Shown piece after piece: positions 2,510 through 40,423 of a DNA stretch of 46,970 bases. The translations under genes and the position numbers were made by a program. Source of the stretch: Gemmatimonadaceae bacterium (GTDB lineage: Bacteria > Gemmatimonadota > Gemmatimonadetes > Gemmatimonadales > Gemmatimonadaceae); assembly GCA_026786185.1 (NCBI GenBank), contig JAJAYP010000057.1, positions 1 through 46,970 on the forward strand, in the 5' to 3' direction. The notes below the pieces were generated by a model. It worked only from the letters and a program-made list of their open reading frames with translations, ran no database searches and was not told the DNA's origin. Positions within the stretch are counted from its first letter, which is position 1. Every line of letters starts with the position of its first letter.

Positions 2510-3694
2510 TCAGGCGGTGGAGTCGGTCTCGAAGCCGGACCAGCTCGTGTCGCTGGTGCCGGCCACGCCCTGGGCGCGCAGCGCGAACTCGCTGGGGCTG
2601 GTGGCATAGAAGACCGCGCTCTCGTAGGAAATGATCCCCTGCGAGTAGTACGCCATCAGCGCCTGATCGAAGCTCTGCATGCCATACTGCACCGTGCCTT
2701 CCTTGATCAGGTCCGGGATGTTGAGCGTCTTGTCCATGTCCCGGATCTGGTCGCGCACCGTTTGCGTGTTGATCAGCACCTCCACCGCGGGCACACGGCC
2801 CGGCTTGTCCGAACGCGGCACCAGGCGCAGGGAGACGACCGCCTGCAACGCGCTCGCCAGCGAAAACCGCACTTCCGCCTGCTGGTGTGGCGGATAGAAC
2901 GAGAGCACGCGATTGATCGTCTGCGTCGCATCGGTCGTATGCAGCGTGCTGAACACCAGGTGCCCGGTGTCGGCCGCCTTGAGCGCGGTGTCGAGCGTTT
3001 CCAGATCGCGGATCTCGCCGATGAGGATGACGTCGGGATCCTGTCGCAGCACGCGGCGAAGCGCCTGCGCGAACGTCGCAGTATCGGTGCCGACCTCGCG
3101 CTGGTTGATGTTGCAGTTGATGTCGCGATGGAGGAATTCGATCGGATCCTCGATCGTGATGACGTTCGCCTTCCGGTGCTCGTTCAGGTGCTGGATCATC
3201 GCCGCGAGCGCGGTGCTCTTGCCCGACCCGGTGATACCGGTGACGAGCACCAGACCACGGGGGCGCAACGCGATCTCCTCGAGCACGGGCGGAAGATTCA
3301 GCTCCTTGAGGGTCTTCGCCTGATACGGAATGGAGCGCATGGCGTAGCAGAGCGATCCGCGCTGCTGATACACGTTGCACCGAAAGCGGCCGATGCCGGG
3401 CACGCCGATGGCGAAGTCGCACTCCTTGTTGTCGGTGAACTCCTTCACCTGACGCGGCGTCATCAACTGCTCGGCGAGACCCTTCAGGTCTTCGGGCTTG
3501 AGCGGGGGGTGATCGAGCGGCACGAGGTCGCCATGCAGCCGCAACGTCGGCGGCCGGCCCACCTTGAGATGCAGGTCGGATGCGTTGCGCTGCACCAGCT
3601 GCTGGAGCACGTCCTTGAAGTTGAACGTGCCAGCCGCGGCTCCGGCTGGAGTGCCAGCCGAGCCGGGGGCCGACGGAGCCGGGCGCTTAGCCAT
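2510..3694 (-). CDS. PilT/PilU-type twitching motility retraction ATPase
   Basis: Walker [54 protein letters not shown]; the C-terminus [32 protein letters not shown] looks PilU-like. Confidence 0.93.
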
Positions 3695-8005: not shown

Positions 8006-9841
8006 GTGCTCCAAACCATGCGGAGCTCCGCCAAGGTCGTGATGTGGGTTCTCCTCGCATCCTTCGTTGGCGGGTTCCTTCTCGTCGAAACATCCGGCCT
8101 CCTGGGTCGCAGCGCCGTCACCCCCACCACGGCCGTCGCGTCGGTGAACGGTGCGGACATCCTGTACACCGATTGGCAGCGCCGTTCCCAGCAGATGGTG
8201 CAGCAGCAGCAGCAGCAGCAGTCGCAGTCCGGGCGTTCGCTCACGCAGGACGAGATCAGCCGGATCGACAACCAGGCGTTCGACGAGATGGTCGCCGAGC
8301 TGCTGCTGCAGCAGGAGTACGAGCGTCGCGGCATCACGGTGTCGGACGACGAGCTGCGCGACTACGCGCGTTTCGCGCCGCCACAGTGGGTGCGATCCGC
8401 GCCCGACCTGCAGACCGAGGGTGTGTTCGACCCCGCCAAGTACCAGCGCCTCCTGGCCAGTTCGCAAGCGCGGCAATCGGGCCTGCTCGTGTCGCTCGAG
8501 CAGTACTTTCGCGGCGAGGTGCCGAAGCAGAAGCTGTTCGAGCAGGTGACGAGCGGCATGTTCGTCCCGGATGCGGAGCTGTGGCGTTCGTGGCAGGACG
8601 CCACGGACAGCGCGTCGGTGAGCTTCGTCGTGTTCCGGCCGAGCATCACGGCTGCCGACACGGCCGTGAGCGAGGGTGAGCTGCGCAAGTATTACGAGGC
8701 GCATCGGAGCGAGTTCGATCGGCCGGCCCACGCGTCACTGAGCGTGCTGTACATCCCACGCATCGTCTCGGCGGCCGACAGTGCAGCGGTCCGGTCGCGG
8801 ATCACGGCGCTGCGCGCGGAGATCGCGGGCGGCGCCAAGTTCGAGGACGTGGCGAAGCGTGAATCAGCCGACTCCGCATCGGGCGCGGACGGTGGGAGCC
8901 TTGGCAAGAGCACTCGTGGCCGTCTGGTCCCCGCATTCGAGCAGGTCGCGTACGGGCTCAAGGCCGGCGAGCTCTCGCAGCCGGTGTTGACCCAGTTCGG
9001 GTATCACCTCATCAAGCTCGACGCGCGCGCCGGCGATACGCTGACGCTTCGGCACATCCTGCTGCGCATCGAGCCGAGCGATTCGTCGGCGGCCAGGGTG
9101 GATCGCTCGGCGGACCAGCTCGCGCGGATCGCCGCGAGCAGCGAGCAGCCCGCGAAGTTCGACGAAGCAGCGCGGACGCTCAAGCTCACCCCATTCCGGG
9201 TCTCGGTGGTGGAGGGCGAGCCGGCGCAGCACGACGGGAAGTACATCCCCAGCGTGAGCGCGTGGGCGTTCGCCGGCGCGAGCGCGGGCGAGAGCAGCGA
9301 TCTCTTCGATGCAGAGGACGGCTACTACATCGCTCGCCTCGACACGTTGTCGGGCGGCGGCAAGACCTTCGATGCGGTCAGGTCGGCGGTGCGTGAGCGC
9401 GTCGGGCTCGATCGCGCCGTGGAGCGCGCCGTGCCTGATGCCCAGGCGCTGGCCCAGGCGGCTCGACGCTCGAGCCTCGAGGCTGCCGCCGCCGCGAAGG
9501 GAATGACGGTGACGAAGACGGGCATGACCACCCGTGGCGGCGCCGCGCAGCAGTTCGGGAGTCTCGGCGAGGCAGTCGGCGCCGCGTTCGCGCTCCCGGC
9601 GAGCACGCTCAGCGCGCCGATTCGTCAGCGGGACGGCGTGTTCGTGATGCGCGTCGATGCCCGCAAGCCCGCCGATCGCGCCGCGTTCGACACCCAGAAG
9701 ACCGACCTGCGTGGGCGACGGGTACAGCAACTTCGGCAGCAGCGCCTCCAGATGTTCCTCGAGGACCTGCGGAAGAGCGCGAAGGTGACCGACAACCGCA
9801 AGGACATCAACGCCCAGTTGCGGCGGCAGGCGGTGACCTGA
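8006..9841 (+). CDS. ppiD: peptidylprolyl isomerase with SurA_N and parvulin domains (PpiD-like, membrane anchored)
   Basis: GTG start with AAGGAG 8 nt upstream; N-terminal TM VVMWVLLASFVGGFLLVETSGLLG; parvulin blocks GGSLGKSTRGRLVPAFEQVAYGLKAGELSQPVLTQFGYHLIKLD and TLRHILLRI. Confidence 0.88.
   Translation: MLQTMRSSAKVVMWVLLASFVGGFLLVETSGLLGRSAVTPTTAVASVNGADILYTDWQRRSQQMVQQQQQQQSQSGRSLTQDEISRIDNQAFDEMVAELLLQQEYERRGITVSDDELRDYARFAPPQWVRSAPDLQTEGVFDPAKYQRLLASSQARQSGLLVSLEQYFRGEVPKQKLFEQVTSGMFVPDAELWRSWQDATDSASVSFVVFRPSITAADTAVSEGELRKYYEAHRSEFDRPAHASLSVLYIPRIVSAADSAAVRSRITALRAEIAGGAKFEDVAKRESADSASGADGGSLGKSTRGRLVPAFEQVAYGLKAGELSQPVLTQFGYHLIKLDARAGDTLTLRHILLRIEPSDSSAARVDRSADQLARIAASSEQPAKFDEAARTLKLTPFRVSVVEGEPAQHDGKYIPSVSAWAFAGASAGESSDLFDAEDGYYIARLDTLSGGGKTFDAVRSAVRERVGLDRAVERAVPDAQALAQAARRSSLEAAAAAKGMTVTKTGMTTRGGAAQQFGSLGEAVGAAFALPASTLSAPIRQRDGVFVMRVDARKPADRAAFDTQKTDLRGRRVQQLRQQRLQMFLEDLRKSAKVTDNRKDINAQLRRQAVT
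8201..8221 (+). repeat. (CAG)7 microsatellite encoding poly-Gln in the ppiD-like gene
   Basis: cagcagcagcagcagcagcag read directly; protein ...QMVQQQQQQQSQSGRS... Confidence 0.95.
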
Positions 9842-9853
9842 GAACTGATAACT

Positions 9854-9901
9854 GTAGGTCGGTAGGTCGGTAGGTCGGTAGGTCGGTAGGTCGGTAGGGC
9901 G
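9854..9901 (+). repeat. tandem octamer array (GTAGGTCG)5 plus one GTAGGGCG
   Basis: Six consecutive octamers at 9854, 9862, 9870, 9878, 9886 and 9894 read directly. Confidence 0.97.
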
Positions 9902-9909
9902 GAAACATG

Positions 9910-9942
9910 AAGGGCACACCGGACGCTGTTCGGTGTGCCCTT
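9910..9942. terminator. bidirectional intrinsic terminator-like hairpin between convergent ppiD and tatA
   Basis: AAGGGCACACCG-GACGCTGTT-CGGTGTGCCCTT, perfect 12-bp stem with 9-nt loop. Confidence 0.8.
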
Positions 9943-9950
9943 GCAGTAAC

Positions 9951-9990
9951 ACCTACCCACCTACCCACAAACCCACCTACACAAAACCCC
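9951..9990 (-). repeat. degenerate period-8 array (ACCTACCC family), inverted relative to the GTAGGTCG array
   Basis: Octamers ACCTACCC, ACCTACCC, ACAAACCC, ACCTACAC, AAAACCCC; reverse complement GGGTAGGT. Confidence 0.85.
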
Positions 9991-9995
9991 AGTCC

Positions 9996-10256
9996 TCAGA
10001 TCAATCGCTTCGGCTCGGGCCGCACGTCCTCGGACGCCTGCCGCGATGTCGCGAGCGGGTCCGGCGCAGGCAGACGCGCCTCGGTGCGGGGCTCGGGCTC
10101 GGTCACGGACCGTTCCACGTCGTTGATGTTCTTCTTGAACTCCCGGATCCCCTTGCCGAACGATCCGCTGATCTCCGGAATGCGCTTGGCACCGAAGAGG
10201 ACGAGCACGATGACTAGCACGATCACCAGCTCGCCGAAACCAAGATTGAAGGGCAT
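9996..10256 (-). CDS. tatA: twin-arginine translocase subunit TatA/TatE
   Basis: 86 aa; MPFNLGFGELVIVLVIVLVLFGAKRIPEISGSFGKGIREFKK. Confidence 0.95.
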   Translation of the reverse strand: MPFNLGFGELVIVLVIVLVLFGAKRIPEISGSFGKGIREFKKNINDVERSVTEPEPRTEARLPAPDPLATSRQASEDVRPEPKRLI

Positions 10257-40340: not shown

Positions 40341-40423
40341 CCGGTGAAACCGTGAACCGTGAACCGTGAACCGTGAACCGCCGATCACCGTTCACCGTCA
40401 GTCGACAGACGTCAGTCGTCACT
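40341..40423. repeat. period-7 mosaic tandem array filling the relA-uvrB spacer
   Basis: 40350-40377 (CCGTGAA)x4, CCGCCGA, (TCACCGT)x2, CAGTCGA, CAGACGT, CAGTCGT, then CACT; preceded by CCGGTGAAA; overlaps the relA stop codon. Confidence 0.9.

Follow-up and report, generated by a model that had tools for sequence, protein, structure and literature searches.

Mirrored tandem-repeat arms around a hairpin between ppiD and tatA belong to a gene-end element that recurs in a Gemmatimonadaceae genome and its relatives

Introduction

The STRR sequences of cyanobacteria are heptamer tandem arrays dispersed in non-coding DNA, as are the arrays described here, and we know of no mirrored two-arm architecture among them. 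The preliminary description of the present locus offered STRR as a loose analogy; loose it is, and nearer parallels have been published (Rehm 2015, PMC4692102). Rehm et al. 2015 described GGGAATC and GGGGA(C/T)T heptamer repeats as dispersed tandem arrays in Xanthomonas and Nostoc, in which the G-rich strand is the sense strand in the 50 bp after a stop, overlap included, and the antisense strand in the 50 bp before a start (PMC4692102). They are scarce between divergent genes, and each Xanthomonas genome carries 70-75 inverted pairs in convergent orientation (PMC4692102). The Xanthomonas repeats are the closest known system and match the layout found here. Like them, the arrays of the Gemmatimonadaceae genome studied here are dispersed, mostly intergenic, built from one short tandem unit, oriented by the same rule relative to stops and starts, and scarce between divergent genes. 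They differ in the sequence and length of the unit and in the coexistence of two families in one genome. Convergent gaps hold about 50% of sites here and 16% of repeats there, and here a separate hairpin lies between the arms at many sites, with the unit swapped between species at one site. G-tracts of three, of the GGGNATC type, are absent: the octamer GTAGGTCG has GG only, and the heptamer GTGAACC, with no GG, is unable to form G-quadruplexes.

TAACTGA direct repeats occur in Beggiatoaceae, Cyanobacteria and Bacteroidetes, mainly just upstream of starts and almost never inverted (MacGregor 2015, PMC4679880). The present arrays are likewise short, intergenic and dispersed, heptamers among them, and a TAACTGA-like dimer stands at 9842-9853; however, the main units, GTAGGTSG and GTGAACS, are located at stops rather than upstream of starts, and are mirrored. 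REP/BIME elements of the GTAG and CGTC superfamilies are dispersed intergenic palindromes that form inverted dimers at the 3' ends of convergent or unidirectional genes (Di Nocera et al. 2013, PMC3733652), their REPs being units of 20-40 bp that bear an unpaired tag, accompanied by a RAYT for the GTAG types (PMC3733652). The elements reported here adjoin 3' ends in the same way as GTAG REPs, but have long tandem arms, carry GTAG in each unit where it is predicted to be paired, and come without a Y1 transposase in the five genomes searched for one. With bidirectional intrinsic terminators they share a GC-rich hairpin with A/T flanks, set between convergent genes and kept in position through the family, whereas mirrored tandem arrays flanking the stem are foreign to standard terminators. 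Earlier reports of heptamer or octamer repeats at gene ends were piecemeal (Xanthomonas, Nostoc, Beggiatoaceae), and guesses at their role differed between quadruplexes, RNA-binding proteins and slippage.

Results

The ppiD-tatA cassette was located in the window, the whole stretch of 46,970 nucleotides that was analysed (Table 1). As first described, it comprises an octamer arm, a hairpin and a mirrored degenerate octamer arm, and all three were found in the sequence. Within the interval given for the cassette, 9842-9990, the first 12 bases (GAACTGATAACT) form a short TAACTGA-like dimer instead of octamer. Stretches resembling this dimer also adjoin other arrays of the genome (for example L039 and L203). 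The stem, given as 12 perfect base pairs, does contain these 12, and continues through a G.T wobble and two further pairs to 15 bp. Folded as RNA, the whole gap forms one composite hairpin on either strand (-73.8 and -81.6 kcal/mol, z below -6; z = -6.6 for the -73.8 kcal/mol fold). The left array has the top TRF score of the window, 91, against a maximum of 84 over 60 dinucleotide shuffles of the window, a margin that alone is modest; recurrence is the decisive evidence.

Table 1. Features of the ppiD-tatA gap and a second element in the window.
Feature	Position	Strand	Basis or remark
PpiD/SurA-type peptidyl-prolyl isomerase gene (ppiD)	8018..9841	+	Pfam Rotamase + SurA_N_2; stop TGA at 9839-9841
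GAACTGATAACT, short TAACTGA/GAACTGA-type heptamer dimer, from ppiD stop to octamer array	9842..9853	+	sequence
Left arm, (GTAGGTCG)5 GTAGGGCG	9854..9901	+	TRF score 91, unit split
Central hairpin, AAGGGCACACCGGAC-GCT-GTTCGGTGTGCCCTT, 15 pairs (one G.T), 3-nt loop	9910..9942	.	fold; candidate bidirectional terminator, member of dispersed family
Right arm, minus-strand GTAGGTGG GTTTGTGG GTAGGTGG GTAGGTGT, four degenerate octamers	9949..9980	-	TRF, unit split
tatA (twin-arginine translocase subunit), convergent to ppiD	9996..10256	-	Pfam TatA_B_E; stop at 9996-9998
Second element, (GTGAACC)4 / (AACCGTG)4.7 with short mirrored arm, GTGAACC family	40352..40395 (40348-40395 as (AACCGTG)4.7)	.	between two minus-strand genes

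We searched for the octamer in the source genome, a draft of 3.5 Mb in 327 contigs (G000), and found it at about 27 loci, in a fragmented assembly where several arrays lie at contig ends and copy numbers are possibly collapsed. A two-octamer pattern with up to 3 mismatches gave 80+83 matches, as compared with 31+38 for the reversed-pattern control, and a three-octamer pattern gave 37+32 as compared with 0+0. The first view of the cassette as a composed unit is borne out, and the unit recurs. Contigs C19, C21, C28, C114, C122, C128, C192, C272, C290, C291, C303 and C322 carry arrays close to their ends, at most a few hundred bases away; the repeats probably break short-read assembly, and the true copy numbers may be higher than those counted.

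Similar cassettes, sought elsewhere in the genome and among relatives, are present in both. When the three-octamer search was run on 60 genomes (the source genome and relatives from its genus, family and order), 8 contained matches, and the reversed control gave zero in those 8. Dense octamer sets occur in G000 (69 matches) and G004 (18), and GTAGGACG variants in G002 and G010 (8 each); the same search found none in the sister species G003. The GTGAACC heptamer family has 245 matches in G000, 191 in G003 and almost none in the other genomes searched, and adds dozens of loci in these two species. Some 70 sites were read in G000 and G003, and they have a common layout, with either the octamer or a 7-letter unit. 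The element combines a hairpin family, GGGCACACC...GGTGTGCCC, with tandem arrays on its two sides that are inverted relative to each other, their unit of 7 or 8 bp being specific to the clade.

Placement relative to genes was read over 447 kb of G000 and 281 kb of G003, comprising array surroundings and arbitrary contigs. Genes were called with a purpose-made codon-usage caller, which leaves stop positions independent of start choice and start distances less certain. The loci were found through the arrays themselves, so that placement is free of gene-context bias and the sample does not give array frequency. Convergent gaps held 21 of 41 sites in G000 (expected 12-14%) and 13 of 26 in G003 (expected 17-20%), an over-representation of 2.5-4 times, and divergent gaps held one of the 41 and none of the 26. 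The arrays are thus strongly tied to gene 3' ends and convergent gaps, the enrichment that the preliminary description had proposed to look for, and random placement is excluded. The setting between convergent genes is favoured, but about half of the elements lie between co-directional genes; there, 13 of 16 two-armed elements are closer to the upstream stop than to the next start.

The strand of the arms follows the stop codon closely. Among G-rich arms facing away from a stop, 70 of 76 begin within 25 bp of it (median 3 bp), a near-stop count reached in none of 5000 trials of random placement inside the same gaps. The stop codon itself is overlapped by 31 of the 76, and is often the TAG of GTAGG or the TGA of GTGAACC. 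Sense arms facing a start are rare and distant; the G-rich strand is sense after stops and antisense before starts. Some sites have a single arm, in places immediately before a start codon. Ten genes next to octamer sites were assigned to housekeeping families or to none (S10, chlorite-dismutase/HemQ family, acyl-CoA dehydrogenase, MacB/ABC). A link to mobile or surface genes was considered and rejected, no transposase being among these ten.

We examined how the two arms are combined. In 37 pairs of adjacent arms the G-rich one leads, and the two reversed adjacencies each have an extra 2-unit arm. Both arms belong to the same family in 19 of 20 pairs in G000 (10 octamer/octamer, 9 heptamer/heptamer, 1 mixed; Fisher p = 1e-4), and in the predicted fold the shorter arm is paired with the opposite one over 75-100% of its length, except at the single mixed site. 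At this site (L038, contig C290, 4-169), a hairpin of the same family separates eight GTGAACC units from seven GTAGGTCG units. In the octamer pairs of G000 a C-variant arm is always joined to a G-variant arm, judged by the majority of units (10/10), and we take this rule to be a trace left by an ancestral element with a fixed orientation. Selection against perfect palindromes was rejected as its cause: G004 pairs the same variant on both arms, and heptamers are exempt.

The centre between the arms measures either 0 to about 20 bp, the abutting arms then serving as the hairpin, or else 30-63 bp, often with a hairpin of its own; one centre is of 140 bp. A hairpin between the arms, as first described, is therefore found at many sites but is not obligatory, since the arms (nearly) abut and form the hairpin themselves in approximately half of the two-armed sites. 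When 22 copies of the central hairpin were compared, compensatory changes were seen in 9 of its 15 stem pairs, a level reached by 0 of 500 shuffles; these copies were selected for at least 12 paired positions, which inflates their paired percentage. In G003 a single 63-bp sequence, GTAACGRCG-AAGGGCACACCGGAC...GTCCGGTGTGCCCTT-...GACGCCCTTAC, is repeated in many centres, and because these copies sit at unrelated loci the element spreads as a unit with a fixed orientation. GTAACGRCG is found beside octamer arms in G004 as well, which suggests a common core bearing different arms.

We compared the ppiD-tatA gap across relatives, where the repeat unit was found to differ between species at one orthologous site, a feature invisible to a reader of a single sequence. 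G003, whose PpiD is 81% identical, keeps GGGCACACCGG...CCGGTGTGCCC with GTGATCC/GTGAACG arms; G002 has a related hairpin between GTAGGACG arms; and in G021, G018 and G045 the mirrored arms are built from still other units (CAGAGA-type in G021, GTGAGAG in G045). In the relatives with arms the unit type is the same on both sides, though it varies among relatives. The gap contains the hairpin without arms in G001, G005, G007 and G008, and is only 10 bp long in G004. A strong hairpin is present in nearly all relatives whose gap is 50-180 bp. In G013 (L067) a longer insertion, whose inverted ends are near GATGCCAGTTTGT, occupies the gap of 675 bp.

Other orthologous sites of G000 and G003 also carry different arrays: an octamer in G000 against a two-armed heptamer element in G003 (L031/L160), an octamer against a small heptamer hairpin (L043/L150), and a single against a double heptamer (L138/L155). 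The four array sites common to both species are not counted as proof of site preference, as both sets were picked for arrays. At the L043 and L037 sites the octamer is absent from more distant members of the genus.

Discussion

These data describe a real, recurring gene-end element that is related to the Xanthomonas repeats already described. With moderate confidence, we propose that the cassette is a copy of a dispersed, oriented, REP-like palindromic element of gene 3' ends that has a bidirectional intrinsic terminator as its core and arms that lengthen the stem or, where they abut, take its place. The central hairpin would terminate transcription from both sides, serving ppiD from one and tatA from the other, and the 3'UTR of each mRNA would carry an arm just before the hairpin. 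In read-through transcripts both arms could pair into a long imperfect stem, acting as a back-up terminator, an RNase III target or a 3'-end shield; this pairing would matter only on read-through, because termination right after the central hairpin keeps the arms in separate transcripts. Where there is no central hairpin, the abutting arms would themselves be the hairpin. The arms would change length in both directions by slippage, and copies would move between gene ends.

We infer termination, read-through pairing and an effect on stability from what can be read directly in the DNA, namely the hairpin, its conservation and its placement. As expected of a bidirectional terminator, a stable stem with compensatory changes lies between convergent genes, and a role at transcript ends, as first suggested, or as a terminator is plausible. 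One copy (L203, contig C188, around 2940-3040) consists of GAACTGA repeats, a GTAGGTGG array and then AAAGGGCACACCGGACTTGATCCGTGTGCCCCATTTTTTT with seven T. By its sequence this copy would be a textbook intrinsic terminator, which indicates that the hairpin family can probably supply a canonical one. The hairpin in the window has a weak U-tract only (CCCTTGCAGTA), and a consensus terminator scan found none. A known RNA family was rejected, the Rfam search returning chance matches below threshold only.

The main rival, less probable but to be taken seriously, is that the arms are selfish or neutral passengers. A dispersed palindrome with slippage-grown arrays would survive only at gene ends, being harmful elsewhere, and the hairpin would terminate while the arms stay idle. 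Units swap freely between species while the hairpin stays, and the hairpins without arms in G001, G005, G007 and G008 indicate that arms are dispensable. Spread as a unit fits the common 63-bp core of the G003 copies at unrelated sites, the 10/10 pairing of C- and G-variants is expected from copying one oriented element, two G003 elements have an orthologous G000 site without an array, and the neighbours are ordinary housekeeping genes. Harm avoidance covers the placement of the arms, but not directly their G-rich-first order or the use of one family in both. Stops in the unit strand that follows the stop codon (GTAG, GTGA), with none in the complement, could explain orientation, yet the GGGAATC repeat of Xanthomonas obeys the rule with stops on neither strand. 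We keep both readings, functional arms and merely tolerated ones, and consider the terminator with arms most likely.

It is improbable that the arrays are bound by a DNA- or RNA-binding protein, or fold into G-quadruplexes, and in this way insulate convergent transcription or stall forks. With GG at intervals of 4 nt, octamer arrays could form two-tier quadruplexes, and GGGAATC forms quadruplexes in vitro with transcript starts and stops nearby (Rehm 2015, PMC4692102). However, (GTGAACC)n is placed alike and has no GG, so that quadruplexes are rejected as the general cause, and a unit that is wholly different between sister species would be hard for a conserved binding protein to follow.

Still less credible is a trans-acting RNA network, in which G-rich 3'UTR arrays would pair with C-rich arrays before the start codons of other mRNAs. 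Single C-rich-sense arms do lie 1-25 bp before starts at L031, L042, L045, L049 and L128, and a post-transcriptional role was proposed for TAACTGA repeats near starts (MacGregor 2015, PMC4679880), but such sites are few and may be leftover right halves of hairpin elements. Classical REP/BIME elements mobilised by a RAYT (Y1) transposase are the most doubtful candidate: the GTAG motif, the intergenic palindromes and the 3'-end location are as reported for REPs (PMC3733652), but GTAG is here paired and in tandem rather than a single unpaired tag, and a search for Y1_Tnp (PF01797) gave no match in G000, G002, G003, G004 or G010, the array-bearing genomes checked, which largely refutes such mobilisation.

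In the present genome two unrelated units follow common rules of placement and polarity, and at one orthologous gap the unit is swapped with the hairpin and mirrored layout retained. Together these findings make the architecture separable from the sequence, and leave quadruplexes out as a general cause. Tentatively, mirrored 3'-end arrays may be a recurrent architecture in unrelated bacteria, with the layout kept and the unit replaced on both arms together in each lineage. If so, selection would act on arm-to-arm pairing, or a copying machinery would write both arms, and no particular sequence would be under selection.

Other units were seen among the genomes read. In G002 a nested element is present (L192, L193), with outer GTAGGACG arms enclosing inner mirrored CGGTTTA/CGGTTTG heptamer arms. 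CAGAGG/ACAGAG-type tandem repeats with mirrored CCTCTG arms occur at L103 3600-3626 (G000), L119 6634-6658 (G004) and L070 (G021), and are a further unit family with identical layout in several relatives.
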